DNA from: an uncultured Kordiimonas sp.
GTDB taxonomy: Bacteria; Pseudomonadota; Alphaproteobacteria; Sphingomonadales; Kordiimonadaceae
Length of the DNA: 64,000 bases
NCBI GenBank assembly: GCA_947503625.1
Contig: CANNEK010000002.1
Location: forward strand, 310,001 to 374,000
Direction of reading: 5' to 3'
Shown in pieces: positions 30,388-49,334 of this stretch. The translations under genes and the position numbers were made by a program. Numbering within the stretch: position 1 is the first letter of the stretch; every line of letters begins with the position of its first letter. The notes under the pieces are model-generated. The model worked only from the letters and a program-made list of their open reading frames with translations, was not told the origin of the DNA and made no database searches.

Positions 30388-30411
30388 CTTGCCCAACACC
30401 ATTTGGGCAAG
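30388..30411. repeat. Inverted repeat upstream of the HTH-less LuxR-like gene
   Basis: CTTGCCCAA-caccat-TTGGGCAAG, 9-bp arms. Confidence 0.6.
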
Positions 30412-30453
30412 CCCCGGTACCGCATGTATTCGTGGACAAACGGGGGAAGCACC

Positions 30454-31014
30454 ATGAGCGAGCAACCAGTAACACAAACCCAGGAAAGCGGACCGGGCGG
30501 TGGCGGCATGGCCGCCGGGCTGGAGGCGGTGATGTACCGCGCGCTAAGCTCTGCAAGTTCCATGAAGGCCTTTCAGGATCAGGTTGCCGCCTTTCTGGAT
30601 TCGTGGGGGTTCAACAGTTTTTCCTACCAGCTGGTGGGCGCAGACCACAAACGGCTGACACCACCCAAAAGCGTGATGACCACCCTGCCCGCCGACCTTC
30701 TGGCGGCCTACCGGGAAGCGGACTTTCACCTGTGGGATGTTGCGCTTGATTATGCCTTTCATAACAAACGCGACGTTTTCTATTCAGACCTGCAGGCCGA
30801 GCTGAAAGCTGGCCCCCATGAAACAACCGCCCGGCAGGTTAATCAGGAAATATTCCAGCTTTACCGGTCATTCGGCTATCACGACTTTTACCTGATCCCG
30901 GCGGGTCGCGGCGGCACCAGCGCTCTGTTTTCAGTGGCCGACCGTGACAGCGACCCAACCACCCTGATGGCGAAAGTGGCGCGCAGCAATTACGGCGAAA
31001 CAGACATTCAGTAA
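30454..31014 (+). CDS. LuxR autoinducer-binding-domain-like protein lacking a C-terminal HTH
   Basis: FQDQVAAFLDSWGFNSFSYQL ... YREADFHLWDVALDYAF ... LYRSFGYHDFYLIPAG resembles the N-terminal domain of the protein at 48474; the ORF stops where the HTH should begin. Confidence 0.65.
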   Translation: MSEQPVTQTQESGPGGGGMAAGLEAVMYRALSSASSMKAFQDQVAAFLDSWGFNSFSYQLVGADHKRLTPPKSVMTTLPADLLAAYREADFHLWDVALDYAFHNKRDVFYSDLQAELKAGPHETTARQVNQEIFQLYRSFGYHDFYLIPAGRGGTSALFSVADRDSDPTTLMAKVARSNYGETDIQ

Positions 31015-31221
31015 GCGACAGGTGTGCAGGTGGAAATGGAGCTCGGCGCAAGCGCGAATACACAGATTCCTGCGATTGAAAATCAATAATTCCGCTGCAT
31101 ACTAAAGTAATCTGTGCCATTAAGGGCGCGTATACAGGGATACGATGCAGCCATCCAAGTGCCGCACACAAAAACAAAAAACGCACAGGAACTGAAAAGT
31201 GCAAAGAAATAGAAACAGGCC

Positions 31222-31431
31222 ATGAACGTTTCAAATCCAGAAAAACACATACGTCAATCAGGTGTTTTGCAACAAATTACCACCCCGGCAGAAACCGCTG
31301 CCGTGCTTTGTGTCTGTTACCCGGACCCGCTGGAAGAAGTTGCGCGCCGCGCTGCGGCTGAAGAAGCCGACGGTGCTGACAACCAGACATTCTGGTCCTC
31401 GGTGAAAAAGCTGATAGCGACCCGAAGCTGA
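31222..31431 (+). CDS. Small hypothetical protein
   Basis: 69-aa ORF MNVSNPEKHIRQSGVLQQ...; weak RBS, only ORF size supports it. Confidence 0.3.
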   Translation: MNVSNPEKHIRQSGVLQQITTPAETAAVLCVCYPDPLEEVARRAAAEEADGADNQTFWSSVKKLIATRS

Positions 31432-31433
31432 AG

Positions 31434-31484
31434 AACTCTGAAAGCCGCAAAACTCTGAAAGCCGGAAAACTCTGAAAGCTGCAA
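31434..31484. repeat. Three tandem 17-bp repeats
   Basis: aactctgaaagccgcaa / aactctgaaagccggaa / aactctgaaagctgcaa. Confidence 0.8.
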
Positions 31485-31932
31485 AGAGCTGGCAATTCGG
31501 CCTCACACCATAATTCGACCTGCAACCCGTCAAAAGCAACCGGCATGAACGCCGGTCTTTGTGCTTCCATGCCCTGTCTTGCCCTGTCTGCCCACGCCAG
31601 TCCGAAAATCCGCCTGCCTCGCCACACCAGCGTCACAATATGTGGATAAGGTCACACTCTGATCAATACTACTATAAATGGTTTTATATTAAAATTTTGC
31701 TCGTTATGCGATATTTATTTGAGCTAACTGCCTGTTTGCATTAAGAGTGGAATATCGGTGGGGCTACGGTTTCAAACACTAAACCCGGTACCTGTCGACT
31801 GATGAATATGTACGTTGAAATGGCTGGCTTCTCTTAGACGGTATCGTTAGCTGAAGACATGATCGCAGGGGCACAAGGTCCAGACCCTGCTGGTGTCACC
31901 GTTTATGACATCTGTTTCACTAAATCACGACG

Positions 31933-32703
31933 TTGGTTGGTTCTGTTGAGGCAACCGACTTCGGTACGCTGATGGGAAAATCGGCTATGTTGGACCTTGT
32001 ACACCTTCAGGACAGTATCGCCAGGATACAACGGGCGAAATCCCTGTCCGCTCTTCACACAACTTTCACTGAGGAAATCGCTGCTCTTGGTTTTGACAAA
32101 CACACCTGTCTGTCGCTTGTCGATATGAATAACCCGCCACCCTCTGCCATTCAGGTATTCCGGTTTCCAGAGCAATGGGTCGAGCGCTACAAGGCCAAGG
32201 AATACTACAAACACGATGTCGTGCTGAAAACCGTGCTCAAAAACACCGGTCCCTATGCCTGGCACACGCTCGACAGGTCGGACAAACGCAATCGCAAGAT
32301 ATTCGCCGAAGCCAAAGAATTCGGCATATCGGATGGTATGACAGTGCCCATCACCCTGCCGGGGCATTATCCGTGCAGCATTAATATGGCGGGCGATCAT
32401 GTTGATGTAGATCCGCTCAACTATCACATCATGCATTTGCTGGCGGAATATTACTTCCTGAAAATCATCGAGCTGGCCGGAGAGGGCAAAAAACTGTTTG
32501 ATCCGCCAGAGCTAACCCCCAGAGAGCGGGAATGCCTGATCTGGATGGCGAAGGGAAAAAGCGATTTCGAAATCGGGTGTATTCTGTCGATTTCCTCACG
32601 CACGGTGAATGGCTATATTGAAAACATCCGCAAAAAGTTTGATGTCAGCACCCGCACACAGGCCGTTGCCCTGGCTGTTTCAGGCGGCATCATCGTACCC
32701 TGA
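31933..32703 (+). CDS. LuxR-family quorum-sensing regulator
   Basis: AHL-binding-like domain (EQWVERYKAKEYYKHDVV) and HTH LTPRERECLIWMAKGKSDFEIGCILSISSRTVNGYIENIRKKFDV. True start may be 31972 or 31987. Confidence 0.9.
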   Translation: MVGSVEATDFGTLMGKSAMLDLVHLQDSIARIQRAKSLSALHTTFTEEIAALGFDKHTCLSLVDMNNPPPSAIQVFRFPEQWVERYKAKEYYKHDVVLKTVLKNTGPYAWHTLDRSDKRNRKIFAEAKEFGISDGMTVPITLPGHYPCSINMAGDHVDVDPLNYHIMHLLAEYYFLKIIELAGEGKKLFDPPELTPRERECLIWMAKGKSDFEIGCILSISSRTVNGYIENIRKKFDVSTRTQAVALAVSGGIIVP

Positions 32704-32755
32704 CGCCGGTTCGTACCCTGACTTTGGCTTACCGATTCTGTCCTCATGAAAAAAC

Positions 32756-32775
32756 AACCTGCGCAAAAACAGGTT
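32756..32775. promoter_or_regulatory. lux-box-like 20-bp inverted repeat upstream of the luxI homologue
   Basis: AACCTG-CGCAAAAA-CAGGTT. Confidence 0.45.
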
Positions 32776-32918
32776 CTGTACATCGTACCGGTGGATAAAT
32801 TCCGCTTAAAATACTGATTTAAATGATCTTTTTTGCACACCCGTATTTTTACGGGTTTCCCGTCACTCTCCTTTTTCGTCATCCTTCCTGCTGAAATATT
32901 ACTTTTGGGGGTAATGGG

Positions 32919-33533
32919 ATGATTGAAATCGTCACAAGGTTTAACCGGCAGGCGTTCGCCAGCCAGATGGAACAGATGTTCCGCCAGAGATATTCGGTGT
33001 TTGTCGAGCAATTGAACTGGGACCTTCCGGAGGCAAAGGATGGTCTTGAAGTCGACGAGTTTGATACCGACGATACCATCTATCTTTTATCGATCGACAG
33101 AAAGGGCCGACTTCAGGGCTCGAAACGCCTGAACCCGACAATGGCACCGCATCTGATGTCCGGGAAATTTCCCCATCTCGTCGAGGGTGAGGTTCCGCGC
33201 GGGCCACACATATGGGAAAGCTCGCGCTCCTGTATTCCGGCATCAGGCAGAGGCAACGGCGTGATCGGCCAGCTGTTCCTCGCGATGGTGGAAACAAGCC
33301 TGCTTTTTGGTGTCCGGCAAATCACATTTGTTGCAGGGATGGATTTCTACCAGACGATTATACGCGCCGGTTGGGGCCATGTGCCACTGGGATACCCGCA
33401 GCCCGACGCGTCCGGTGAAGATAATATTGCCGGCAGCCTCATCATCGATCCCATCGCACTCCATAACATGCGCCGGAAATACGGAATTATGCAACCTGTC
33501 GTGAACACGGCGGCAGCCAGCATCGCCGCCTGA
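32919..33533 (+). CDS. Acyl-homoserine-lactone synthase (LuxI family)
   Basis: RQRYSVFVEQLNWDLP ... EVDEFDTDDTIYLLSID ... LQGSKRLNPT ... IWESSRSCI: conserved R, F, W, D, D, R and E of the LuxI family. Confidence 0.9.
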   Translation: MIEIVTRFNRQAFASQMEQMFRQRYSVFVEQLNWDLPEAKDGLEVDEFDTDDTIYLLSIDRKGRLQGSKRLNPTMAPHLMSGKFPHLVEGEVPRGPHIWESSRSCIPASGRGNGVIGQLFLAMVETSLLFGVRQITFVAGMDFYQTIIRAGWGHVPLGYPQPDASGEDNIAGSLIIDPIALHNMRRKYGIMQPVVNTAAASIAA

Positions 33534-33854: not shown

Positions 33855-34441
33855 ACAAACCCGACAAGCTTCCGTTTGAGAGTATGTACGAAGTGCGCGG
33901 CCTCGCCAAAAAGCGCACGCATCCCGCTCCCCGTCCACACGCCATATTCCCCGGCACCATACGCCCGGACAGCAACGATAAAAATAGCGAAGACACGAAT
34001 ACCGACGTACCAGCCAACCCGGGATGCCTGAAAAAAATCACCTGGGCCCGGCTCTGCAAGCTATACGAACTGAATGAAAGGCTTATGGATGATGCGCTGC
34101 AACGACTGCACGCAGAGCCTCTTCTCTACAGACCATTCCAGCTGACCCGGAGGCCGGGACAACCGGCAGCAGGAGCCCGGATTCTGGCCCTGGGCAGGTT
34201 TTTCAGCCATATCGCAGGCCTTGGCGGCAGGGACCGCACCCGGCGGCGTGTACGCGCCTGCAACCGATGGCTTTTTTACATTCGCTTGTGCGAAGGCGTG
34301 GCACTCACCAACACCGATACCGAATTTGCGCATCTGCAGATGCTCTATGCCGCGCGGAAGTTTGGCGCCCTGCGTGCCGCGTTGAGACAATATCATGACC
34401 GGCGTTTCAAGAGCCTGCCGTGCGTGATGAAACTGATTTAG
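33851..34441 (+). CDS. FCD-domain-like protein without recognisable winged HTH; paralogue of the downstream GntR regulator
   Basis: RFFSHIAGLGG...FAHLQMLYAARKFGALRAALRQYHDRRFKSLPCVMKLI aligns by eye with ELFTHIARQSG...HLRLLCRIYFRQDMKKLRQALTRFHEKRRAMLPDVVRLI of the next gene. GTG start with GGAGG upstream. Confidence 0.55.
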   Translation: MNKPDKLPFESMYEVRGLAKKRTHPAPRPHAIFPGTIRPDSNDKNSEDTNTDVPANPGCLKKITWARLCKLYELNERLMDDALQRLHAEPLLYRPFQLTRRPGQPAAGARILALGRFFSHIAGLGGRDRTRRRVRACNRWLFYIRLCEGVALTNTDTEFAHLQMLYAARKFGALRAALRQYHDRRFKSLPCVMKLI

Positions 34442-34485
34442 AGAGCACCGCACAAATCCCCAGACAGAAATCGAGGAACAGCAAT

Positions 34486-35205
34486 ATGCAGACACCGTTA
34501 AATGACCGACACCCCGGCGAAGACTGGGACAACAATCAGGTCTATAACAGCATTAAAGCTCTTGTGGTTTCCCAGGGCCTTGCACCCGGAACGCGGATTC
34601 GTCTTGAACCGCTGGCAGACCAGCTTTATGTCAGCAACACGCCGGTGCGGGAAGCCCTGATCCAGCTCGCCGCCGAGCGGCTGATCAGCGATGTCCCAAA
34701 TGCGGGGTTTTTCACCAAGAAGGTATCTGAATCGGAAATGCAGGACCTGTGCACCCTGAGCCAGTTCATGCTTGATTGGGCGCTCAGTGTTATCCGTTCC
34801 GGCGGCCAGGTGCCGGGCATGCTGAAACCGCCCGGCGTTTTCGATATCAGCGAGGCGACACCCACTTTCAGCCCACAGGCAACAGTGGAAATGATGGACG
34901 AGCTTTTTACCCACATCGCACGACAGTCGGGCAATGCGGATGTCATTCATATCGTTCGCAACATCAATGAACGCACCCACTATCTTCGGCTGAAGGAAGC
35001 CGAACTGATTGACGACATAGAAGAGCACCTGCGCCTTCTCTGTCGCATCTATTTTCGACAGGACATGAAAAAACTGAGGCAGGCCCTCACCCGGTTTCAT
35101 GAGAAACGTCGCGCAATGTTGCCGGATGTTGTGCGCCTGATCAGGCTGGCCCAGACAGCATCTCTGTCCGGCAACAGGCGCGACGGCACGAGCGCATCGG
35201 CCTGA
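34486..35205 (+). CDS. GntR/FCD-family transcriptional regulator
   Basis: N-terminal wHTH (LAPGTRIRLEPLADQLYVSNTPVREALIQLAAERLI) and FCD C-terminal domain. Confidence 0.85.
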   Translation: MQTPLNDRHPGEDWDNNQVYNSIKALVVSQGLAPGTRIRLEPLADQLYVSNTPVREALIQLAAERLISDVPNAGFFTKKVSESEMQDLCTLSQFMLDWALSVIRSGGQVPGMLKPPGVFDISEATPTFSPQATVEMMDELFTHIARQSGNADVIHIVRNINERTHYLRLKEAELIDDIEEHLRLLCRIYFRQDMKKLRQALTRFHEKRRAMLPDVVRLIRLAQTASLSGNRRDGTSASA

Positions 35206-35253: not shown

Positions 35254-37134
35254 TTGACCGCCGTGAGCAACCCATTGAAACATGCAGTAAATCTGGCCCG
35301 CGCGGAAGCAGATGGTTTCGTCAGGCGGCGGCTTTTTCTGGCGCTGGTTCTGGTGCTTTTCACTGCCGCACTCGCGGCGCTTGCACCGGTCGCGCTTAAA
35401 TACGCCATTGATGTTCTGGACAGCGGCCAGCCGCTGAGCCTTCATCTGCCGCAATTACCCTGGATCGACTTTCTGGTGGATACCCCTTTCATCCTTGGGC
35501 CGGTCGCCCTGATCTCGGTGTATCTTTTGGGCCTATGGGTGTCGAGGTCGCTTGGCGAACTTCGATGGTTTTTATATGGAACTGCCGATCAGCGGCTACA
35601 TCGAAAACTAAGCCAGCGCCTGTTCAGTCATGTGATCAAACTGCCGATGAGCTTTCATCTGGGCCGCAAAACCGGTGCGCTGAATCAAACGCTTATACAG
35701 GGCCTTTCCGGCTACAGCATTCTTCTGAACCACACGATATTTACCGTGCTGCCGGTGCTGGTGGAAATCGCCATCATCGGAACTGTACTGGCCTTCTTTT
35801 TCAGTTTTGAGTTCCTGGCAATCCTGTCAGTTTCAGTTCTTGCTTACAGTGCGGTATTCGCCCTTGGTGTGAAACAGATTATTGGCCCCAGCCGTGCGGT
35901 ATCGTCAGCGCAGGTTGACGCCTATGCCAACCTTACTGACAGCATCCTTAACACTGAAACGGTGAAATATTTTACCGCGGAACGCCGTGTGAACAACCGG
36001 TACGGCGCGGCTCTTGCCAGATCGGAACGGCAGTGGGCGCGGTTCTACTGGCGCAAGTCGATGAACGGTATACTGGTTGCGGCGGTTTTTGTCATATCAC
36101 TGGGAGCAGCCGTACTTATGGGTTCCCGCCAGGTGATGAGCGGCGCCATGACGGTTGGTGATTTTGTTCTCGTCAACGCCTACATGCTGCAGATCGTCCG
36201 GCCGATGGAAACGCTTGGTGCCGCGTTCCGCGACATTGCATACGGATTTGCCTTCATTGAAAAAATGACTGAACTGATGAGCCGAAGAACAGAACGCGAC
36301 GATACGGGGATTTCCGAAGTCAGCAAAGACGATACTGGGGGCTACGATGTCAAAAAGCCTGCGCCCGCTGGTGCAGGTGAACTGGTATTTGATGACGTGA
36401 ATTTCTCCTATTTGTCCGGCCATCGTGTGTTGAACAATATTTGCTTTAGGGTAGATGCAGGAAAAACGGTTGGTATTGTTGGCGGTAGCGGCGCGGGAAA
36501 ATCATCAATCATCCGTCTTCTGATGCGCCTTTATGAACCTGGCAACGGTGCAATATACCTGAACGGTGCGCCGACGCTGGACATGCCACTCGAAAAACTC
36601 CGCAGCGCCATTGCCATCGTGCCTCAGGACACCGTGCTCTTCAACGATACTATCGCCTACAATATCGGCTTTGGCAGGGAGGGCTGCTCGCAACCAGACA
36701 TCGAGGAAGCGGCGCGCCTTGCCAACATCCATGACAGGATACTCGCCATGCCCAAGGGGTATCAAACCATTGTGGGCGAGCGCGGCCTCAAGTTGTCAGG
36801 CGGCGAAAAGCAGAGAGTTGCCATCGCCAGGGCCGCTATCAGAAAGCCACAGGTATTTGTTTTTGATGAAGCCACGTCATCTCTGGATACGCACACCGAG
36901 AGGGTCATTCTGGACAATCTGATCGATGTATCAAAAAACAGGACAACGCTGATCATTGCTCACCGCTTGTCCACCGTAGTTCATTCCGACGAAATACTGG
37001 TTCTGGACCATGGACAGATCACCGAACGCGGCAGCCACGACGCACTGCTGCAGAAAAAAAGCCGATATGCCGCCATGTGGCTGGCACAGCAATCCAGCGG
37101 AAAACAGGAAAGAATACAGCAAGTATTAGCCTGA
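35254..37134 (+). CDS. ABC transporter, fused permease-ATPase (ATM1/HMT1-like; candidate lasso exporter)
   Basis: N-terminal TM domain; Walker A GGSGAGKSS, signature LSGGEKQRVAIARA, Walker B VFVFDEATSSLD. Confidence 0.85.
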   Translation: MTAVSNPLKHAVNLARAEADGFVRRRLFLALVLVLFTAALAALAPVALKYAIDVLDSGQPLSLHLPQLPWIDFLVDTPFILGPVALISVYLLGLWVSRSLGELRWFLYGTADQRLHRKLSQRLFSHVIKLPMSFHLGRKTGALNQTLIQGLSGYSILLNHTIFTVLPVLVEIAIIGTVLAFFFSFEFLAILSVSVLAYSAVFALGVKQIIGPSRAVSSAQVDAYANLTDSILNTETVKYFTAERRVNNRYGAALARSERQWARFYWRKSMNGILVAAVFVISLGAAVLMGSRQVMSGAMTVGDFVLVNAYMLQIVRPMETLGAAFRDIAYGFAFIEKMTELMSRRTERDDTGISEVSKDDTGGYDVKKPAPAGAGELVFDDVNFSYLSGHRVLNNICFRVDAGKTVGIVGGSGAGKSSIIRLLMRLYEPGNGAIYLNGAPTLDMPLEKLRSAIAIVPQDTVLFNDTIAYNIGFGREGCSQPDIEEAARLANIHDRILAMPKGYQTIVGERGLKLSGGEKQRVAIARAAIRKPQVFVFDEATSSLDTHTERVILDNLIDVSKNRTTLIIAHRLSTVVHSDEILVLDHGQITERGSHDALLQKKSRYAAMWLAQQSSGKQERIQQVLA

Positions 37135-37344
37135 CGCCGGACCTTCGGGAAACTCCTGCGGAGCGGCCTTTGCGCCGGGCGTCAAGCTACGCCTGCAGTT
37201 CTGAATAATATAATGAAAATATATAGTTATATGACGCAGCGCGCCTGTTTTATTCTGAATTTGTGCAGTGCGGCAATGCCCGGGCTTCATGAGCGACCGA
37301 GTCTAAACCACAGCCGGGATAAAACGAGCCAGGATGAAACAAAA

Positions 37345-38142
37345 ATGAACACAATGGCGCCTGCAAAACATTTTCTGCGCAAAACCATTTTCCCCTGCGA
37401 TGTCGATGGTCACATGATCGTGCTTGATCTGGAAGCTGACCGATATTCGCGTCTGGGCGATGCGGAGGCTAATGCGCTCAGGCACTTGTTCGGCGACGAT
37501 CCATCCCACGCACCGGAGGCGAATGGAAAAACGCCAGAAGCACCAGGGCAGCATGAGGCTGCGATCAAAACCCTCATGGAACAGGGCATCCTTGCGCAGA
37601 GCCCGTGTGAGGGCAAGGGCACTTTCCCCGCCATGCCCGCGCAGGCAACGCTCGACATGAAGGGCTGGCCGCATGACGGCAACCCGAAGATACGGGCAGG
37701 CCATGTGATCAACTGCGCCCGCGCGTTTGTGCGCGCCAAATTCATGCGTCGGTTTTACCCGATCGAACGCATCGTCGGACGCATCACAAAACGCCGGGAG
37801 CAGGAGCTAACCAAAGCGGCGAAAAGAGCCAAGGCAGAGAAAAGAACATCAAAGGCAGATGTGTCGCCAGAAGCAGAGTCTGAGGCGGAGCTTGAACGCA
37901 TCCGGGAGCTGGTGGAGGTTTTCCGCATCCTCAAGGTGCTGTTTTACACCGCGAAAGACCATTGTTTGTTCGACTCGCTCACCCTCGTGGAATTCCTGTC
38001 GTTCTACAAAATTTACCCCCTATGGGTGTTCGGGGTGCAGATGGGACCATTCGGCGCGCACTGCTGGGTGCAGGATGGTGATTTTATCTATAATGACAGT
38101 CCCGATCACACGGGTTCTTTCACACCAATTATGACCGCCTGA
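37345..38142 (+). CDS. Lasso peptide B protein: PqqD-like RRE + transglutaminase-like leader peptidase
   Basis: PqqD-like MIVLDLEADRYSRLGDAEANALRHLF; C-terminal KDHCLFDSLTLVEFL ... FGAHCWVQDGDFIYNDSPDHT with Cys/His/Asp of lasso B2 proteins. Confidence 0.85.
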   Translation: MNTMAPAKHFLRKTIFPCDVDGHMIVLDLEADRYSRLGDAEANALRHLFGDDPSHAPEANGKTPEAPGQHEAAIKTLMEQGILAQSPCEGKGTFPAMPAQATLDMKGWPHDGNPKIRAGHVINCARAFVRAKFMRRFYPIERIVGRITKRREQELTKAAKRAKAEKRTSKADVSPEAESEAELERIRELVEVFRILKVLFYTAKDHCLFDSLTLVEFLSFYKIYPLWVFGVQMGPFGAHCWVQDGDFIYNDSPDHTGSFTPIMTA

Positions 38143-38158
38143 GCGAGAGGAAACACAC

Positions 38159-40009
38159 ATGTATCGCTATATCTCCCTGATCTGGAACGAAGCAGACGGC
38201 CAGGCGGCAGACACCGCCAGGTTCCTCGCCAACCATTTCATGGGCACGGAGACAGACTGGTCAACAGCCTACAGTGGCAAAGGGCTGCGTGTGCTGCACA
38301 CCGGCGAGGAGAAAGGCCGCATGCAGGCCTATCCGGTCAATCCGCAGTCAGAGGGCAGCGGCGGTGTTGTGCTCGGCAAATTGTTTGACCGGGCAAAAAG
38401 CCCGGAGGTTATCCCCGGCAATGCAGAGCTGAGCGTGCCGGAGGCCCGCAAGGTGGTGGAGAGCAAAGGCCGCCATCTTGTGAATGACTATTGGGGCACT
38501 TATGTTGCTTTTTTTCAGGACGAGACCAAAAAATATGTGCTGGTGGACCCGATCGGCACCTTCTGCTGTTTCAGCACACAGTATCGCGGCGTAGAAATTT
38601 ATTTCACCTACATGCCTGATGTCGCTGATTGTGACTTCTTGAATTTCTCCATCAATTGGCTCCCTATTGCAAAACAACTAAGATATGGTTTCGAAAAAAC
38701 CGAAACTGGCCTTAGGGAAGTTGACAAAACTCTGCCTGGCCAGTGCGTCACCATCTCTCCGTGGAATAAAGAGAAGGCGTTCTACTGGAACCCGCAGAAA
38801 ATCTCACAAACCGATGTGATAGAAGACGTGGAAGAGGCTGAGGAAGCTTTGCGGCAGACCTTGCTAACCACAGTTGCAGCAATGGCTGCCCCATATGACA
38901 ATGTGTTTCATCAGTTGGGTGGGCTAGATTCCTCCATCCTACTCGCTTGCTTGAAAGAAGCGCCTACCTCACTAGAGGTGACCTGCCTAAATGTATTTCA
39001 TGACTGCCCAATGGGCGACGAGCGCTATTATGCTCGCAAAGCTACTGCTCATGTTGATGTACCATTGATTGAATATTCGGAGAGCACAGCCAACCTACAC
39101 TTCGAAGAAATGGAAAATACTCCGCTAACAACTGTACCTCTATACTATGCGCAACAAATTGAATTTGAGAAAAGTAAATCATACATGGCGCAACAAAACG
39201 GCGTCCAAGCCACCTTCAGTGGACTAGGAGGGGATGAAATACTTTATGCAACTGCTGCAAGTTATAGTCCCATAGATTACTTGCATTCTAATGGTCTAAG
39301 ACCTCTATTACTTGGCCTTATCATGGAAGCTGCACGCATGCAGAATGTATCAGTTTGGTCTATCCTTCCCAAAATCGCTCGCGACGGCTGGAAACACAAC
39401 CGATGGGATCTATATAGAGAGATAGATTTGGGTACTGTCACGACACTAAATAGCGAAATTCAGGACCTTATTAAACCTGATGGCGCCATACATCCTTGGA
39501 TTGAACAAAAATACGACGCACCACCCGGTAAATTTGAACACATTGTCCCGTACACCAAAGGGATTTATGATCTGGAATGCAAATCAACACCAAAAGAACA
39601 TGTACCAATGATATATCCGCTACTATCACAGCCAGTAGTAGAGATATGCCTCCGCATTCCCAGTTGGGTGATGACTATAAATGGCAAAACTCGTGGTCTA
39701 GCACGGAAGGCATTTCAAAACTACCTACCGGCTGACATCATATGGCGGACGTCAAAATTATCGGCAGGTTCACATGTCAAAACTGTCATTCAGGAAAACC
39801 AAGCGTTTTTCAGAGAATGTCTACTTGACGGTATCTTAGTTTCCGAAAAAATCGTTAAGAAAAGTAATCTGGAGAAAACTCTTGCCATGGACCATGACAT
39901 TGGCAGCAAAGATCATAGCTGGTTGTTATGGTATATAAATGCAGAGATATGGGCTCGAAAATGGCGAGGTAAAAGACTCATCAATATTTCGCAAAGCAAT
40001 GCCGCATGA
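38159..40009 (+). CDS. Lasso peptide cyclase C (asparagine-synthetase-like)
   Basis: HQLGGLDSSILLACL ATP-binding PP-loop, FSGLGGDEI, adjacency to the B protein; clear GC drop inside the gene. Confidence 0.85.
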   Translation: MYRYISLIWNEADGQAADTARFLANHFMGTETDWSTAYSGKGLRVLHTGEEKGRMQAYPVNPQSEGSGGVVLGKLFDRAKSPEVIPGNAELSVPEARKVVESKGRHLVNDYWGTYVAFFQDETKKYVLVDPIGTFCCFSTQYRGVEIYFTYMPDVADCDFLNFSINWLPIAKQLRYGFEKTETGLREVDKTLPGQCVTISPWNKEKAFYWNPQKISQTDVIEDVEEAEEALRQTLLTTVAAMAAPYDNVFHQLGGLDSSILLACLKEAPTSLEVTCLNVFHDCPMGDERYYARKATAHVDVPLIEYSESTANLHFEEMENTPLTTVPLYYAQQIEFEKSKSYMAQQNGVQATFSGLGGDEILYATAASYSPIDYLHSNGLRPLLLGLIMEAARMQNVSVWSILPKIARDGWKHNRWDLYREIDLGTVTTLNSEIQDLIKPDGAIHPWIEQKYDAPPGKFEHIVPYTKGIYDLECKSTPKEHVPMIYPLLSQPVVEICLRIPSWVMTINGKTRGLARKAFQNYLPADIIWRTSKLSAGSHVKTVIQENQAFFRECLLDGILVSEKIVKKSNLEKTLAMDHDIGSKDHSWLLWYINAEIWARKWRGKRLINISQSNAA

Positions 40010-40219
40010 AGTATACAAATATGGTAAACTTGATGGCGTAAAATTTTGAGTTTATGTATTGAGTGGTTTGCAACGTTTTTTGTAAAACGATCGAATCATG
40101 TGTGTCTGTAAAACAAGATTTTATAATGTTTTTATAAACTTACCGGATAAACTCGAATGATCCTATTGTTTGTTTGTCAGCACGAGCTGGCATAAACCCT
40201 AACTCGATAGGAGACTATA

Positions 40220-40303
40220 ATGATTGATCTTGGAAAAGTATCTGTAGAAACTAAAATCAAGCCTACCGTACCCGCTGAATTTAACGGCGAACTTCGTCCG
40301 TAA
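40220..40303 (+). CDS. Candidate lasso peptide precursor 1: MIDLGKVSVETK | IKPTVPAEFNGELRP
   Basis: Below ORF-track cut-off. ATG with AGGAG upstream; leader ends ETK (Thr at -2); Glu at core position 8; just downstream of cyclase C; paralogous to precursor 2. Confidence 0.8.
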   Translation: MIDLGKVSVETKIKPTVPAEFNGELRP

Positions 40304-40353: not shown

Positions 40354-40413
40354 GGGAAGTATGGAGTTGCGGCGCTCGCATTAAATACGTGCATACGTGA
40401 ATTCATACTTCCC
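40354..40413. repeat. Inverted repeat between the two precursor genes
   Basis: GGGAAGTATG (40354-40363) ... CATACTTCCC (40404-40413), 10-bp perfect arms. Confidence 0.6.
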
Positions 40414-40451: not shown

Positions 40452-40538
40452 ATGATTGACCTTGGGCAAGCTTCCACTGAGACGAAATTAAAGGCATGTT
40501 TTCCTTTAGAATTCGATATGCAACCACGCGAATGCTGA
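40452..40538 (+). CDS. Candidate lasso peptide precursor 2: MIDLGQASTETK | LKACFPLEFDMQPREC
   Basis: Below ORF-track cut-off. Leader paralogous to precursor 1, Thr at -2, Glu8 of core, shared K2/P6/E8/F9/(N/D)10/R14; weak RBS. Confidence 0.75.
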   Translation: MIDLGQASTETKLKACFPLEFDMQPREC

Positions 40539-40579: not shown

Positions 40580-42748
40580 CTATCGTTCCGCACTTAGCAT
40601 TTGCATATTCGATTGATGCTGTTTCTTAAGAATATGCCAACGCTTATATTGCTCCACTTTGCCAGGAACAGCATCTTCAACATCCCGTAGCCAAAAATTA
40701 AACCAGTCAATATTGCGAGTATACACCATATAACGATGAGCAGGCTGCCACTTCACATGATACTCGTCGGGGTAGATATACATCTCCACTGATTTTCCAG
40801 CATCTTTCAATGCATTATAATTTTGCTTGGTAATAAAGTATTCGCGATCAGCAACTTGAATTAACAATGGAGTATTAATCCTACTGGCATTTACTCCTAC
40901 AGAATTTTTTGCTCGGGTTTCAAAACCAATCGGACTAAACGGTGTGCCACCAAATGCCCCATTCATGCTTTTGCCCCAAAACGAATCTGATGAAAAATCA
41001 AAATTGGGTGGTGACATCACGCTGTAGGCGGTTGACGCCGCGCCATAATTTCTATTGATAATAGCGGTGTCTAATGTGGTGGCACCATGGCTCAAGCCCG
41101 CAATCCCTATCCTATCAGGATCAACAATGCCACGATCAACCAATAAATCTACCATATACTCAATAGCTGTCGCTGGCCCACGATCAACCATTGCATACTT
41201 CAAGTATTTAATTTGCACATCAAGTGGATCGGCAGTTTTATCTTCATACTCTCCCTCTGATGAATCAAAACTCAGAACCACAAACCCATTTTGGGCAAAC
41301 ACATGGATCGGCTGTTCGTCACCTGTTCCGCCTCGCAAAAACCCGTTAGATCGATATTGAACGATAATCATTGGGTAACGGTGCCCGTCTTGGTAACCCT
41401 TCGGATACACCAGATGCGCGTGGGCCTTATTGCCATAAGCATCTTCACCAATGATTTTCTCAATATTGGTGAAGCTGAAATCCTGAAATTCAGGATTCAT
41501 ATCGGCAATAGTTTTGATTTCGCCACCATCAAGATCAACCGAAACAATTTTACGCGGCGATGTCCATGTTTCGTGACCACAAATCAAACTGTTTTCCACT
41601 ATCGTACAATCGAAAAACATATCGTCACTGCTCAGAATGCTTCGGACCTTATCTTCACCTGGTGTCCAGCCATACAGAGAGCTTAGGGTATTGCGGGGCC
41701 CATTGCGCAACATGAAAATCACTTCATTGCCATCTCTACTCCACCATATTTTTTGCGGTCGTGTGCTCTGACAAGCCGCAACCTGACAGCGAACGTTTTG
41801 ATTTTCGTCGGATACGGTAACCCACATGGGAGGATAATACCCTTGAAAGATAGCAGGATCCTCGTTTTCAAACCAAGCCAAACGTTTCCCGTCATTTGAC
41901 ATTGTTTCCATTAATCTGTTTTGGCCCTTTAGCATCCCCCGACGAACTATTGCATTTACTGACGTGTCAGCTTCTGCGTAATAGGCCTCAACTTCATCGA
42001 CTGTCGCCATTCTCTCTAACCCAGTCTCGATATCGAGAGCCATAATTGTCAACAAACATCTTCGACTTAAGTTAGTTTCCTGGTCCCACCTTTCTCTAGC
42101 ATCTGAACATGGCGGCCAATACGGTCCTTTCTCGACAGAATAAACCGGAGGGTCTTGTACCAAGTATCCTTGTCGAGCGTTCTCTAGGTTTGCTTCATTT
42201 ATCTCCGCTCGACTTCGGCCTACGGCAAAAAACAACTTCATTCCATCTGCTGAAAATTTTGGTCCCTCGACATCAGCAGCACTATGAGTCACCTGTTCCT
42301 GACCATAGCGACTGCGGTGACTACGCCAAAGTTGCACTTGGTTATTTGCCTTTTTTGTAAAATAAACCCATTCACCGTTTGGAGACCATAATATTTCACT
42401 GAAACCAATACCTCCGATAGGAGAACCCGAAGAAGACCTTAAGTCGCCGACCTCACTACCATCAGCTACCATTAGAGGCTTCACATCCGATTTCGTGCTG
42501 GCAACATACCAACTCACATTAAAGTCATTATTGTCCTTGTCAGCAACAACCACCTGATATGCGACATAATTGCCATTCGGCGATACAGACATGGTTTTTA
42601 TATCGCGAATGGCCAACAAATCATCCGTAGTAGTGCCCCGCTTACTATCTAACTCAGCCAATGCTGCAGGCATCGGCATCAGGTACCAAGTCGAAATCAC
42701 CAAAGATATTGCTGCCAAGAACAGAACTTTGACTTGCTGACCAAACAT
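40580..42748 (-). CDS. S9 prolyl-oligopeptidase-family protein, candidate lasso peptide isopeptidase
   Basis: Signal peptide MFGQQVKVLFLAAISLVISTWYLMPMPAALA; GLSHG nucleophile, Asp in LLIQVADREYF, His in YPDEYHVKW; adjacency to lasso genes. Alternative start 42799. Confidence 0.85.
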   Translation of the reverse strand: MFGQQVKVLFLAAISLVISTWYLMPMPAALAELDSKRGTTTDDLLAIRDIKTMSVSPNGNYVAYQVVVADKDNNDFNVSWYVASTKSDVKPLMVADGSEVGDLRSSSGSPIGGIGFSEILWSPNGEWVYFTKKANNQVQLWRSHRSRYGQEQVTHSAADVEGPKFSADGMKLFFAVGRSRAEINEANLENARQGYLVQDPPVYSVEKGPYWPPCSDARERWDQETNLSRRCLLTIMALDIETGLERMATVDEVEAYYAEADTSVNAIVRRGMLKGQNRLMETMSNDGKRLAWFENEDPAIFQGYYPPMWVTVSDENQNVRCQVAACQSTRPQKIWWSRDGNEVIFMLRNGPRNTLSSLYGWTPGEDKVRSILSSDDMFFDCTIVENSLICGHETWTSPRKIVSVDLDGGEIKTIADMNPEFQDFSFTNIEKIIGEDAYGNKAHAHLVYPKGYQDGHRYPMIIVQYRSNGFLRGGTGDEQPIHVFAQNGFVVLSFDSSEGEYEDKTADPLDVQIKYLKYAMVDRGPATAIEYMVDLLVDRGIVDPDRIGIAGLSHGATTLDTAIINRNYGAASTAYSVMSPPNFDFSSDSFWGKSMNGAFGGTPFSPIGFETRAKNSVGVNASRINTPLLIQVADREYFITKQNYNALKDAGKSVEMYIYPDEYHVKWQPAHRYMVYTRNIDWFNFWLRDVEDAVPGKVEQYKRWHILKKQHQSNMQMLSAER

Positions 42749-42806
42749 CAACCTGCCAACCTTGGAACTACGTTCCCAGATAAAAATAGACGCAATCATG
42801 TTGATG

Positions 42807-45647
42807 TTACCAACGTTTGGTAATCTGGAAAGCGATCGTCCGGCCCAATGCATTGGCGTTGGTAGGGTCAAAATCAAAACTGACGCCCTCAAAGAAACTA
42901 GTAACAAAAGGCGGATCACGATCAAATAGATTGAGGGTCGTCAGTGAGAATACTGTATTATCCAACCATAAACCTGCTGAACCGTCCCCTGTGCTATAGT
43001 TGAAATTCAAGTCCACTGTTGTCCAGGAACTAACATTTTCGACTGGATCAACTCGCTCATTGCGGAAACCATCTACGTAGTTGACAGCTAAGTTCGTCGA
43101 AAAACCTTTGTGAGCCCAATTGATGCTGCTGCGTAGCTTCAGATTAGGTGGATTAAAAGCGGTACCAGCCAAGTCGATAGGCTCATCAGTTTCAATGAGT
43201 TGTTCCAACTGTTCAAACAGGTACGTCCCACCAAGATTAAAAGCAAAACTACCTACCTCTAAGTCCTTTGAGTAGGAAACGTTCACATCAAGACCCCGTG
43301 TCAACACTCCAGCCAAATTGCGCAGACGATTATCAATGAGGGCCTCTGCGTCCGCAAAATCAAACTCCTCGCCTGCAAAATTTGCAGAGAATGGCTGCGC
43401 TTCCAAAAAAGTCAACAAGGCTGGATCAGGATTGAAGTCAAGGATAGGCACCCACCTAGGGTCCGTGAAAGCATCTAAAAAAGCATCTCCCGCAGCAATT
43501 CTATTCTTGAAGTTAATATCGAAGTAAGTAGCCTGAATATTCAGACCCTTTATTGACGATGGCGATATATCGACGCCAGCAGTCCATGTTGTCGCGGTCT
43601 CAGGTTCAAGCCCCGCATTATTACCCCGCGCTAGCACAGCAAGCCTTGTTCCGCTTGGGGATGACGGATCTGAAAAAGGAAACAGAAAACCAATGGCAAA
43701 ACTAGCAACGTCCAATTCATTGAATAAAGGTGCTCGAAATGAAGTGCCATAAGTACCGCGTAAATTAAGCCCTTCTACCGGCGACCATAGCAAGCCCAAC
43801 TTGCTGTCGGTGGACGCTCCAAAGTCACTATAGTCTTCATGGCGTCCGGCAACCGTCAACTCAAGCCGCTCGACCCCGGAACGACGGTTGTCCTCACCCA
43901 CCAAAGGTAAAAACATTTCACCATATGTGGCATAAATGTCGCGGGAGGCATCAATATCAATTGAAGTTGAAGGTTGTAACCCCGTATATGTTTCACGACG
44001 GTATTGACCACCAACCGCCAACTTTAGATCACCTCCAGGCAACTTAAATAGCGTGCCGTCAATCTTCCCGTCAATTGACCAATTCTTCGAAGTCCTACTA
44101 TCCAGTTCCCTAAAACTGCCAGTTTCAATCACAGTGATTCCTCCGGAAACATTGTTTTGACTGAAATTACCAACTAATTCACTTTGCCAGTTTTGGCTTA
44201 GCTCGGCTCTTATACCAATTGAAGCTCCGTATTGCTCAGTCTCACGATTGTCGATTTGGGCTAAGCCAGTATTAAACTCCGAACCAAAAGAATCACTTTC
44301 ACGATTTGAATAAAATGTGTCACCAAAAACCTCTACTGTTTCATTCAAACTCTGCCCTGCCGTTATAAAAATACTGTGGCGCTCTTGCTCAGGTAATAGG
44401 TCGGTAGGGTCTTCAGCATTTGCCGTAAAACTCCGATCATTAGTGTCTAATGCATCGCGACTACTATATTCATACGAAATTAATGCATAGCCAGTATCCC
44501 AGGTGGTACCAAAGGTTTGACCAACCTGAATATCGTCCAAATCCCCCGACGTAGCTGTACCGTATCGCACGCGGGTTTCAGCGCCTTCATAATCATCCCG
44601 CAGGCGGAAGTTCACTACGCCGCCAACCGCGTCCGAGCCATAGATGGCGGAGGCACCGTCTGTCAGCACCTCAACCCGCTCAATAGCGGTGATGGGGATC
44701 ATCGAGATATCAACGAAGTTGCCAAAACCAGCAGGGGCCAACCGACGACCGTTCAACAGCACCAGCGTGCTGTCATTGCCAAGACCCCGTAAGTTAATGC
44801 CCGTTCCCCTATTTAGGCTATCACCAGATGGTACTACCCCTAAATTACTCTCCGAAATCCCGCCGCCAAAATTCTGCGGCAGAGTCTGCATAAACTGCGG
44901 CAGGGTGGAAACCCCGGTCTGATCAATATCCTTGCGGCCATAAACGAAAACCGGCGAGGCGGAGCGCACCCCCCGAATGTTTGAGCCGGTGACCACGATT
45001 TCTTCAAGCTCCTCTTTGGTCAGCGGCCCGAGAAAAGGCTCGTTGTCCTGCTCTGCCTCCGCATTGTTCCCGGCCTGGGTATTGCCCGCCTGATTGTTCC
45101 CTGCCTGGCTGTTCTGCGCACTGCGCCCGCTGGTGTTTGCCAGCGCGAGGTTTCTGCTGGCGGTTGAATTCGCGGAAGAGATTTTCTCGGCGTCCACCCG
45201 GCGGATGATGATCTCGCCGCGGTCACCTTTCTGGAAATCAAGCCCGCTGTCTTTGAGAAGCGACTTCAGGGCATCATCGGACGACATCGGGCCAACAACC
45301 CGGGGGGCGTTTTTGCCCTGAAGCAAATCAGGCGCCGCAATCACCATGACATCGGTCTGGGTGGAAAATTGCAGGAGCGCTTCTGCAAGCGGCTGGGCGG
45401 CAATTTGATAGCGAGTGGAATTTTCGGCGACTTTGGGTGCTTTTTTTGCTGTTTCTGCTACTTTTTTGGCCGTTACGGTTCCTTTTTGACCCGGGATAAC
45501 GATGGTATCGCCCGCTATTACCGCCGCATTCTCTGCGCCGCCCTCATTCGCCTCTACTGCAGCCAGTCCAAACGACAGCGCAAAAACCGATACGGACCCA
45601 AGCGTCAACGACTTCCGATAAAAATTACGTTTCCCAAGCATTTTCAA
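42807..45647 (-). CDS. TonB-dependent transducer-type receptor with STN domain (candidate lasso receptor)
   Basis: Signal peptide, STN region (YQIAAQPLAEALLQFSTQTDVMVIA), TonB box EIVVTGSNI, plug (VLLNGRRLAP ... DGASAIYGSDAVGGVVNF), barrel and C-terminal aromatic; FecR/ECF genes follow. Confidence 0.92.
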   Translation of the reverse strand: MKMLGKRNFYRKSLTLGSVSVFALSFGLAAVEANEGGAENAAVIAGDTIVIPGQKGTVTAKKVAETAKKAPKVAENSTRYQIAAQPLAEALLQFSTQTDVMVIAAPDLLQGKNAPRVVGPMSSDDALKSLLKDSGLDFQKGDRGEIIIRRVDAEKISSANSTASRNLALANTSGRSAQNSQAGNNQAGNTQAGNNAEAEQDNEPFLGPLTKEELEEIVVTGSNIRGVRSASPVFVYGRKDIDQTGVSTLPQFMQTLPQNFGGGISESNLGVVPSGDSLNRGTGINLRGLGNDSTLVLLNGRRLAPAGFGNFVDISMIPITAIERVEVLTDGASAIYGSDAVGGVVNFRLRDDYEGAETRVRYGTATSGDLDDIQVGQTFGTTWDTGYALISYEYSSRDALDTNDRSFTANAEDPTDLLPEQERHSIFITAGQSLNETVEVFGDTFYSNRESDSFGSEFNTGLAQIDNRETEQYGASIGIRAELSQNWQSELVGNFSQNNVSGGITVIETGSFRELDSRTSKNWSIDGKIDGTLFKLPGGDLKLAVGGQYRRETYTGLQPSTSIDIDASRDIYATYGEMFLPLVGEDNRRSGVERLELTVAGRHEDYSDFGASTDSKLGLLWSPVEGLNLRGTYGTSFRAPLFNELDVASFAIGFLFPFSDPSSPSGTRLAVLARGNNAGLEPETATTWTAGVDISPSSIKGLNIQATYFDINFKNRIAAGDAFLDAFTDPRWVPILDFNPDPALLTFLEAQPFSANFAGEEFDFADAEALIDNRLRNLAGVLTRGLDVNVSYSKDLEVGSFAFNLGGTYLFEQLEQLIETDEPIDLAGTAFNPPNLKLRSSINWAHKGFSTNLAVNYVDGFRNERVDPVENVSSWTTVDLNFNYSTGDGSAGLWLDNTVFSLTTLNLFDRDPPFVTSFFEGVSFDFDPTNANALGRTIAFQITKRW

Positions 45648-46112: not shown

Positions 46113-47216
46113 CTAACTTTTTGAATGCAGAATTGTTATCGATTTTCCGTCCGCATCCAACTCGCGCCTGACTTTTACAGGTAACACGAGATCAAGAGTG
46201 GCAACAAACTGCTCCACCTCATCTGTCCGGAAAGATGTCGTCAAACGAAGACTGCGCAGGCTTTCGTCCGACAGGATAATCTCTCCGCTTAGATAGCGAT
46301 TTGCATCAGCGACAATTTCCGCCAGACCGACATCATTGTACCTGAGCCTGCCCTGTCGCCACAAACCGGCTTCGTCAGGGCGCACGGTTTCAATAGTATC
46401 CAATGGCCCCTGATGCGATGCCACAATCTTTTGTCCTGCTGTCAGAACAAGCGGGGCAAAGGCCTCGACTGCATCGCCCTGCAGCACCACGGCCGGAACG
46501 GCCTCTATCTTTTCAGGCTCGCCGTGGGCAACATTGACAATGCCCTCTTCCACAGCCACCCGCACTTCCTCGGGGCCATGGTGAACGTTGAAGCGCGTTC
46601 CGACAACCTGCACTCTTGTGTTGCCGGCAACAACAATGAAAGGCCTTGCCGGGTCCTTTGAGACGGAAAAGAATGCATCACCGCTTGAGAGCAACACCCG
46701 CCGTTCATTTTCATCCATTGAAACAGTCATGGAAGATTTCGCCGCCATGGTTACATGGCTGCCGTCCGCCAGCACATATTCCTTTATCTCGCCGGTTTCG
46801 GTGGCGTAACTGGTCGGCCCCACATTCCAAAAGAAAGCGACCCACACAGTCAGCATCAGCATGGCAAAAATCCCACCAGCAGGTGCCGCCCAGCCGGAAA
46901 GCCCCCAGTGGGAAAATACATCGGCCAAACCACCGCCACCCACAGAGGACCAGATGCCCGTCCGCACACGCGGCGCGCCCTCGTCATGGTCCATACCCCG
47001 GGCCTCAGACTGCTGCAGTTCGCTCAACTCGTTCAGTGCTGCTATGTCATCCCAAACCAGTTTCGAACGTTCATAAGACCATGTATTGCCTATGTCCGCC
47101 TGCCAGTTCGCGAACGCCGCTTTCTCCTCTGCGGACAGATCGCCAGCTTCAGTTTTAACAAGCCACTCGGACGTTTCACGGACACGTCGGGTATATGCTG
47201 ATTGTCTTTTGGTCAT
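46113..47216 (-). CDS. FecR-family anti-sigma/sensor protein
   Basis: ATEWL-like N-terminus (ASEWLVKTEAGDLSAEEKAAFANWQ), FecR region (YVLADGSHVTMAAKSSMTVSMDENERRVLLSSGDAFFSV). Confidence 0.9.
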   Translation of the reverse strand: MTKRQSAYTRRVRETSEWLVKTEAGDLSAEEKAAFANWQADIGNTWSYERSKLVWDDIAALNELSELQQSEARGMDHDEGAPRVRTGIWSSVGGGGLADVFSHWGLSGWAAPAGGIFAMLMLTVWVAFFWNVGPTSYATETGEIKEYVLADGSHVTMAAKSSMTVSMDENERRVLLSSGDAFFSVSKDPARPFIVVAGNTRVQVVGTRFNVHHGPEEVRVAVEEGIVNVAHGEPEKIEAVPAVVLQGDAVEAFAPLVLTAGQKIVASHQGPLDTIETVRPDEAGLWRQGRLRYNDVGLAEIVADANRYLSGEIILSDESLRSLRLTTSFRTDEVEQFVATLDLVLPVKVRRELDADGKSITILHSKS

Positions 47217-47241: not shown

Positions 47242-47862
47242 TCATTTTGACCGCCTTGATAGTGTCTTGCTCATATCAGCCTGATCGATAGCATACCGGC
47301 ATGCCTCAACAGCCTGGGCAACCAACCGCTTGATCGTCGTTTGCGACAAACCTGTGCGGCGAGCAATCTCGGCATACGAAAGCCCGTCGATCCTGTGCAG
47401 CACAAGCAGACGGCGTTTCTTTTCCGGCAATTGCCGGATTGCTTCGGTCAGCACAGCATGCCTCTCTTTAACCGATAAGAGATGTTCTGGACTGAATTCG
47501 TCCACATTTTCTGCTTTATCTTCCAGGTATGGTTCGTGCAAAAGGTCTTTTTTCTGCCAGTCCCTGTTGTATCCATAGACGAAGTTCTTGACCATTCGGA
47601 ACAGATACGCCCCGGCATTGCCTATCTTGTTTTTTTCCCTGATGTTGGAATAAGCGGTGAAAACATCCTGCACGACATCATCTGCATCAAAGCTGCCGTT
47701 CCTGAGTTTTGCTCTGGCATAGCCACGCAGCGGGGCGGCGTAATGCTCATACAGGTCCGTCATCTCGGCGCCAGCGGACACCGGAGCGGACACCGATATG
47801 TCCGCTTTGCGGCAAGGCTGGTTTTCCTCCCGCCCGAGACGCTGTCGACCGCCGCTGTCCAT
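47242..47862 (-). CDS. ECF-type RNA polymerase sigma factor (FecI-like)
   Basis: DADDVVQDVFTAYSNIREKNKIGNAGAYLFRMVKN ... LPEKKRRLLVLHRIDGLSYAEIARRTGLSQTTIKRLV. Start may be 47763. Confidence 0.9.
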   Translation of the reverse strand: MDSGGRQRLGREENQPCRKADISVSAPVSAGAEMTDLYEHYAAPLRGYARAKLRNGSFDADDVVQDVFTAYSNIREKNKIGNAGAYLFRMVKNFVYGYNRDWQKKDLLHEPYLEDKAENVDEFSPEHLLSVKERHAVLTEAIRQLPEKKRRLLVLHRIDGLSYAEIARRTGLSQTTIKRLVAQAVEACRYAIDQADMSKTLSRRSK

Positions 47863-48473
47863 TGATTCGCTCCGCTGTCTTACCCCGAAAAAGCGTGTCT
47901 AGCCGGCATTACACACTCAATAGTAGTTTAAAAAACTCATAGATTGCATAGCGAGCTACAATCCATATTTCATTCTGATAATAATACCTTACGCCTTTTT
48001 CCGGCACAATTACAGGATACTGCGTAGACCTTATGCAACCCGGTGTTGAATTTCTATCATCACTGTTGCCGCCTGATCTGCCTGTCATGACTCCGGCAGT
48101 GTCATCAATCATTCATAAAAAGTTAAAAAATGTGGACGATTTCGGCCCCTCGCTACTCTTCACAGGCAGGAGACAAAATCTGGCGGACAAACTGGCAAAG
48201 GCCGCCCCGGAGAAAAGCTGCCGGAAAAGATGGAAATCAAGGCCACAAAAATTGAAGACATATCCTCCGACGAGAGGATAAGGCAGCCCTTGGGGAGTGT
48301 TTGAAAAATCTGCTGGACCGGATTGGGAAAATGGTTCCCCGGGGGTTGCCGCCACCCAAAGACAAAAATGCATCTGCCAGCCCGTAAATGCAACAAATGA
48401 TTGGGTATGGGGGACAAAAATACAGGATTATGCACTGTTTAGTTGCATATATGTGCTATTTTCAGGGGGTAAT

Positions 48474-49334
48474 ATGAGCGGAGATGTAATCGGCATGAAT
48501 GAGTTAATGAGTAGCAGGGTAATACTTGGGAATGCCCACCCGCTGGTTGAGGGTGACGACAACAGCAACATCGCCAATTTTCAGATATACAGAACACTGA
48601 CAGCGTGCAGAGATATTAGCGACTTTATGAAGCGAATTCGCGATCTGGTCGAAGGGTTGGGGTTCGAAGATTATGCATTCGCCCGAATTGACGCCCCGGG
48701 TGAAGTTGAAACCCGGATACTAACATCACCGAAAGATATGCTTGAGCTATACAATGCCGAAGAAATGTATACGCGTGATATTGGCGTTGAATATATTGCA
48801 AGCAACGTCGTGCCTATTTTTCAATCTGAGCTCTATGGCCATATAAACAAGTTACCCTTTGAAGCGGAGACCATAAGGGCCAATCAACAGATATCCAAGC
48901 TACTGAAAAGCTACGGTTTTTACGACTTTTATTTCATCCCGTGTAAAGCCCATAACGGCAATGGAAAAGTGGTGTTGTCAATCAGCTCCCGCAACATGGA
49001 CCCCGTTAAATTCCAGAGACTGGTTATTAAAAATCAAGCCTTCTTACACGAGTTGGCAGAAGTAATTGATTATGTGGGAACCAGAAGTTTCCCCGGGTTT
49101 TTTCTGAATGAGCACGAAAGCCGGGACATTGTTATTACACCAAAGCCACTGGAACTGCTGACGGTACTGGCTCGTGAAGACATGAGCCTGAACGAAGCCG
49201 CCGAATATCTGGGCCGCAGCATCTATACCGTCAACCAGCAAATCGCCGTCGCCCGCAAGGCACTAGGCGCAGAGACAAACCATGGCGCTGTTTACCAGGC
49301 AATTCGGGAAGGCCTGATCGACTGTAAAAAATAA
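48474..49334 (+). CDS. LuxR-like regulator with divergent N-terminal autoinducer-binding-like domain and HTH
   Basis: LLKSYGFYDFYFIP block shared with 30454 gene; HTH VLAREDMSLNEAAEYLGRSIYTVNQQIAVARKALGA; GGGGGT upstream of ATG 48474. Confidence 0.75.
   Translation: MSGDVIGMNELMSSRVILGNAHPLVEGDDNSNIANFQIYRTLTACRDISDFMKRIRDLVEGLGFEDYAFARIDAPGEVETRILTSPKDMLELYNAEEMYTRDIGVEYIASNVVPIFQSELYGHINKLPFEAETIRANQQISKLLKSYGFYDFYFIPCKAHNGNGKVVLSISSRNMDPVKFQRLVIKNQAFLHELAEVIDYVGTRSFPGFFLNEHESRDIVITPKPLELLTVLAREDMSLNEAAEYLGRSIYTVNQQIAVARKALGAETNHGAVYQAIREGLIDCKK

Follow-up and report, generated by a model that had tools for sequence, protein, structure and literature searches.

A lasso peptide gene cluster with two short precursors

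The 64,000-nucleotide stretch of Kordiimonas DNA analysed here (the window) carries a complete lasso peptide gene cluster (Table 1). An ABC exporter is followed by the maturation genes B and C and by two precursor genes, A1 and A2, and then by a convergent isopeptidase, a TonB-dependent receptor, a FecR-type protein and an extracytoplasmic function (ECF) sigma factor. The isopeptidase and TonB receptor that mark alphaproteobacterial lasso clusters are both present, and orthologues of the exporter adjoin B in many related loci. B scores above its family cut-off, C carries the asparagine synthetase domain, and the catalytic residues of both are intact: Cys251 and His283 of B are invariant across eight aligned B proteins, and Asp257 and Ser258 in the GGLDSS ATP motif of C are invariant in an alignment with its relatives. 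The true start of B is probably near 37340, where homology begins, and its RRE region has no match in Pfam or NCBIfam. Among six aligned isopeptidase homologues, Ser612, Asp693 and His723 are likewise invariant.

Table 1. Features of the lasso peptide cluster, in window coordinates
Feature	Position	Strand	Matches and remarks
ABC exporter with membrane and ATPase domains; opens the lasso operon	35254..37134	+	PF00005 3.7e-29; PF00664 7e-29
B protein, leader-recognition region and transglutaminase-like cysteine protease	37213..38142	+	NF033537 lasso_biosyn_B2, 67.7 bits (cut-off 33)
C protein, asparagine-synthetase-like lactam synthetase (lasso cyclase)	38159..40009	+	PF00733 1.7e-19
Small hairpin TGTCAGC-ACGA-GCTGGCA	40175..40192	+	45 nt before precursor A1
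Precursor A1	40220..40303	+	leader MIDLGKVSVETK, core IKPTVPAEFNGELRP; no Cys; predicted ring Ile1-Glu8
Large hairpin in the A1-A2 gap	40354..40413	+	arms GGGAAGTATG and CATACTTCCC; z -3.4
Precursor A2	40452..40538	+	leader MIDLGQASTETK, core LKACFPLEFDMQPREC; predicted ring Leu1-Glu8
Lasso peptide isopeptidase of the Atxe2 family, convergent with the operon	40580..42925	-	NF033523, 585 bits (cut-off 400)
TonB-dependent receptor	42807..45647	-	PF00593 2e-30; PF07715 6.3e-19
FecR-type anti-sigma factor	46113..47216	-	PF04773 1.9e-21
ECF sigma factor	47242..47862	-	PF08281 3e-16; TIGR02937, 83 bits (cut-off 42.9)

A GntR-type gene (34420-35202) lies upstream of the lasso operon. The region 30403-33530, just upstream of the operon, encodes two LuxR-type AHL-binding proteins, one of which has no recognised DNA-binding domain, together with a LuxI-type synthase, with the LuxI/LuxR pair at 31933-33530. 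A further protein with an AHL-binding domain is encoded on the other side of the cluster, at 48297-49331; quorum control of the lasso cluster is possible.

The A2 interval runs from ATG to stop, and its 28 codons translate as MIDLGQASTETKLKACFPLEFDMQPREC, followed by the stop; the whole translation of A1 is MIDLGKVSVETKIKPTVPAEFNGELRP, likewise followed by a stop. The core boundary in A2 was set by the rule that threonine occupies leader position -2, and the resulting core has a glutamate at position 8, within the range of 7-9 used by lasso rings. It contains two cysteines only, one in the predicted ring (Cys4, codon 40497-40499) and one in the tail (Cys16, codon 40533-40535, the final residue ahead of TGA), the arrangement of cysteines expected of class III. 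The first-pass annotation had placed one cysteine inside a Leu1-Glu8 ring and the other at the very end of the core, and had described the first precursor as free of cysteine; the translations bear out both statements.

Several observations identify A1 and A2 as members of a defined precursor group. A degenerate DNA pattern for short-leader precursors has exactly two matches in the 4.07-Mb genome, A1 and A2. It has 10 matches in 401 genomes of the order, all in lasso loci, and a reversed control pattern gave none among the genomes listed. Since the pattern occurs only in lasso loci and its control is silent, the two genes are genuine precursors rather than chance reading frames, and for A2 this conclusion can be held with high confidence. 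The NCBIfam benenodin-family model NF033522 aligns with A2 residues 1-12, that is with the leader only (E=6.4e-4), at 19.6 bits, below its curated cut-off of 33 bits. The leader and core boundaries of A2 agree with those of about 20 sibling short-leader precursors, and many related precursors have a leader of only 12 residues. A longer A2 leader starting from an upstream TTG (40425) was considered and dropped, as the siblings have their ATG start at the corresponding position. A misassigned residue 1 was also rejected: two related loci (L032 and L033) have glycine exactly where Leu, Ile or Val stands here, which fixes the core boundary. The non-glycine residue 1 proposed for A2 is supported, and it is no oddity, being common to a group of related loci in which several cores begin with Ile, Val, Leu, Phe or Gln.

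Conservation of the A2 scaffold and the rarity of its cysteines

The C protein is 64% identical to that of another genome of the genus (G009), 55% identical to that of a metagenome-assembled genome labelled Emcibacter (L031), and 38-51% identical to those of further loci, among them G052 and G073, which belong to another family; within the genus it is present in 2 of 20 genomes. In G009 the contigs that carry C (C91) and the isopeptidase (C247) join through an exact 64-bp overlap, so that the order C-A1-A2-isopeptidase is conserved. The two G009 cores are VKSGFRIDLPFTPTKP and QIKSGVSIELPFSPTRP. The second of these (L100 10746, minus strand) would start with Gln and have a nine-residue ring, or would start with Ile if cleavage shifts by one.

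A homologue of the A2 core comes from the other family. The G073 precursor (locus L036) consists of the leader MTILGRASSATK and the core VKSTFPLEVDLLPAEEI, which is identical to the A2 core at 8 of 16 positions, a score that none of 20,000 shuffles reached. The residues kept are K2, F5-P6-L7-E8, D10, P13 and E15. Of the codons for residues conserved between the A2 and G073 precursors, 10 of 15 differ synonymously and dS is saturated, which indicates that the K..FPLE.D..P.E scaffold is under selection. The cysteine pair is not part of what is conserved: Cys4 and Cys16 correspond to Thr4 and Glu16 in the G073 core, and neither cysteine is present in the G009 locus. Position 4 is threonine in both A1 and G073, and glycine in G009. 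Judged from these alignments, the simplest view is that the two cysteines arose together in A2 as a derived trait, and their joint gain on a scaffold otherwise held in place would, in this one sequence, fit a disulfide better than drift.

The same pair was not found in homologous cores in the 401 genomes of the order, surveyed with the leader pattern and the isopeptidase family, in families f1 and f8 searched with the C protein, and in 387 genomes of the class. Nor did it turn up in named species genomes, in viral contigs or in a plasmid survey that covered the C protein alone. Forty other proteobacterial B2-type loci yielded 10 candidate precursors, none with cysteine, in a set where precursor detection is weak.

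How unusual are two cysteines in such a core? A sample of 94 different cores, drawn for the most part from loci of the isopeptidase type within the order, contains 8 cysteines in 2003 residues: 89 cores are cysteine-free, two carry a single cysteine and three carry a pair. Given the cysteine rate of the other cores, two in 16 residues has a probability of P=1.3e-3, or P=8e-5 when the cysteine-rich G052 locus is also excluded. The three two-cysteine cores are A2 and two from G052, VKKAVGVPDDLMTPNIFVEIPEDSCGVFPFFTC, with both cysteines in the tail, and VNKGACFPPDHILQPDIFCEYPD, which combines a ring with a tail cysteine provided that the ring closes at Asp10. Paired cysteines are thus commoner than random scatter predicts (simulation over 93 cores, P=4e-4, with two of the three cores from one locus).

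This excess of pairs bears on whether the A2 cysteines need be joined at all. A2 could mature into a lasso whose thiols stay reduced, bond between molecules or bind metal, and it would then function as a two-thiol class II peptide. A third G052 core, IYKCVGKPDHLLVPDIFVEH, has a single ring cysteine, from which it follows that cysteine is tolerated in the related group without a partner, and none of the genes of the A2 cluster has a Pfam or NCBIfam match dedicated to disulfide formation. Against this, pairs are over-represented among the rare cysteine-bearing cores, and the genome encodes DsbB and several DsbA-family proteins. On balance, free or otherwise engaged thiols are an unlikely outcome for A2.

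Hairpins and translation signals around the precursors

A small hairpin precedes A1. Equivalent hairpins start 40-56 nt before the ATG in 15 of 21 short-leader precursors, where shuffled sequences predict 0.9. They are of the GTC..GAC type, usually with a loop of 4, and both arms change together between loci; besides the window they occur in L035, L036, L100, L102, L032, L033, L038, L039, L040 and L041. Among 61 long-leader precursors of the Sphingomonadaceae type, 13 also have such a hairpin upstream (4.9 expected). The structure may act as an RNA element or as an operator.

A1 has the Shine-Dalgarno sequence ATAGGAGA, and a similar sequence is present in nearly all sibling precursors. A2 has neither a Shine-Dalgarno-like sequence nor a sibling-type upstream hairpin, and the same is true of the second G009 precursor. 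A2 is perhaps weakly expressed because both signals are absent; its product may be scarce or separately regulated. The gap between A1 and A2 holds the large hairpin, and G009 has its counterpart, a GGGAAG.../CTTCCC hairpin between its own two precursors (L100, minus strand), with the position kept and the sequence diverged. This structure may set the ratio of A1 to A2. The first-pass annotation had read A2 as a lasso precursor and left these signals aside; the precursor reading stands, with the qualification that A2 lacks the translation signals of its siblings.

These features raise the question of whether A2 might be a copy of A1 that is decaying or poorly expressed, giving little or no product, with cysteines that arose by neutral drift. 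The missing signals, the strong hairpin that separates A2 from A1, and a G009 second precursor that lacks the same signals and has a different core would all be in keeping with decay. The coding sequence argues otherwise. The leader and ring motif of A2 are intact, its scaffold is common to an intact, Shine-Dalgarno-bearing precursor of another family across saturated synonymous divergence, A1 and A2 show many synonymous changes in conserved codons, and the second precursor slot is retained in G009. Decay is accordingly improbable, and the reading of A2 as a working precursor is preferred.

Predicted maturation, disulfide topology and known lasso peptides

From their family membership, B would remove the 12-residue leader of A2 after Thr-Lys, and C would close the ring around the tail F9-C16 by an amide that joins the Leu1 amino group to the Glu8 side chain. 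The ABC exporter would deliver the peptide into the oxidising periplasm, where a Cys4-Cys16 bond would probably form after export, spontaneously or through DsbA/B. The predicted product has 16 residues, an eight-residue ring and an eight-residue tail, with its C-terminus tied back to the ring. By analogy with the products of similar clusters, import through the TonB receptor and final linearisation by the isopeptidase would follow. A dedicated oxidase is apparently needless for known disulfide lasso peptides (PMC9266682).

The geometry of such a bond was explored with a coarse C-alpha model, in which Cys4 and Cys16 come within reach in 5.0% of threaded chains with a ring of 8 and a tail of 8. 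The BI-32169 geometry, in which Cys6 is joined to Cys19, gives a similar value, 4.0% of threaded chains. In unthreaded chains the A2 bond is reachable in 1.2%; the model speaks to feasibility only, with little discrimination, and does not separate a threaded from an unthreaded disulfide product. A2 might then yield a branched-cyclic peptide, with macrolactam and ring-tail disulfide both formed on an unthreaded chain. In favour of such a product, the A2 tail has no large aromatic plug below the ring, and the bond is within reach. It is nevertheless a very improbable product: the characterised products of the B and C enzyme pair are threaded (PMC9266682, PMC13352647), the isopeptidase family of the cluster recognises threaded substrates (PMC13352647), and the bond is about four times more compatible with the threaded state.

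Together, these observations point to a lasso peptide of class III-like topology, tied by a ring-tail Cys4-Cys16 disulfide, as the A2 product, a reading that we consider fairly likely on sequence grounds. A single disulfide between ring and tail defines class III, with BI-32169 and 9401-LP1 as named examples; the open-access reviews name very few members, all from Streptomyces, and describe the biosynthesis as very little known (PMC9266682, PMC13352647). 9401-LP1 from Streptomyces sp. ADI94-01 (AFGPCVENDWFAGTAWIC) has Ala1, a ring Cys5 and a C-terminal Cys18 joined by one proven disulfide (PMC5974421), and no additional oxidase is encoded in its cluster (PMC9266682). It resembles A2 in having one ring and one C-terminal cysteine, a non-glycine residue 1 and a cluster without an oxidase gene. 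It differs in its nine-residue ring, its 18 residues, its actinobacterial origin and the lack of any reported isopeptidase or TonB receptor, and the two share no sequence similarity. The prototype BI-32169, also from Streptomyces, has the single ring-tail disulfide predicted for A2 and, like A2, a C-terminal cysteine, but has a nine-residue ring, Gly1 and 19 residues and is actinobacterial; its gene cluster was still unidentified as of a 2022 review (PMC9266682).

Within the Proteobacteria the likeness lies in the cluster. The class II peptides of the benenodin, astexin and caulosegnin type from Alphaproteobacteria have the leader motif ...IDLG.AS.ETK, B, C, an Atxe2-type isopeptidase, TonB receptor, FecR and sigma factor in common with the A2 locus. 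Their cores start with Gly1 (79 of 93 sampled) and almost never contain cysteine, and their leaders are longer, whereas the A2 locus has 12-residue leaders, Leu, Ile or Val as residue 1, and precursors placed after C. Pandonodin from Pandoraea, the disulfide-bearing lasso peptide that the reviews name from Proteobacteria, is a class IV peptide of 33 residues and has its disulfide inside a long tail (PMC13352647). Like the predicted A2 product it is proteobacterial with one disulfide, and unlike it there is no ring-tail bond.

These comparisons narrow the claim that had been made for A2. The lasso cluster, the core boundaries, the eight-residue ring predicted at Glu8 and the pair of ring and tail cysteines support a class III-like topology; the novelty attached to a non-glycine residue 1 falls away, as 9401-LP1 already has this layout with Ala1. 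What is new with A2 is the proteobacterial isopeptidase-type host, the eight-residue ring and an aliphatic residue 1, Leu1 here, of a kind found across a small group of related loci. The open-access literature yielded no proteobacterial class III peptide, and a subscription journal could hold one. More tentatively, it is possible that a small lasso group, spread over two families near Sphingomonadaceae, has left the norm of Gly1 and cysteine-free cores, taking on a bulky aliphatic residue 1 and gaining cysteine pairs repeatedly (ring-tail in A2, candidate ring-tail and tail-tail in G052), so that disulfide topologies recorded chiefly in actinobacteria arose anew in proteobacterial isopeptidase clusters.

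If the class III-like reading is right, the isopeptidase must open a ring to which the tail is covalently tied. Does an Atxe2-type enzyme act on such a lasso, or does it require prior reduction, which would amount to redox-gated linearisation? A short proteobacterial example with all enzymes adjoining, and with the cysteine-free G073 homologue for comparison, would provide a clean test of what the disulfide contributes.

The G052 locus (L035, 13919-2607) is itself elaborate, with B, C and the isopeptidase each present twice and with six precursors. Cysteine occurs in three of the six, each time in a different layout (single ring; two tail; ring and tail). Two cores, VNKGACFPPDH... (L035 4885, minus strand) and VLKTSVTLKEP... 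(L102 8406, minus strand), lack Asp or Glu at positions 7-9 and have the first such residue at position 10; they have either natural ten-residue rings or cleavage one residue past the Thr(-2) rule. An extra residue before the ring motif is found in three precursors (QIKSGVSIE, VLKTSVTLKE and VNKGACFPPD), for which cleavage one residue later is possible.
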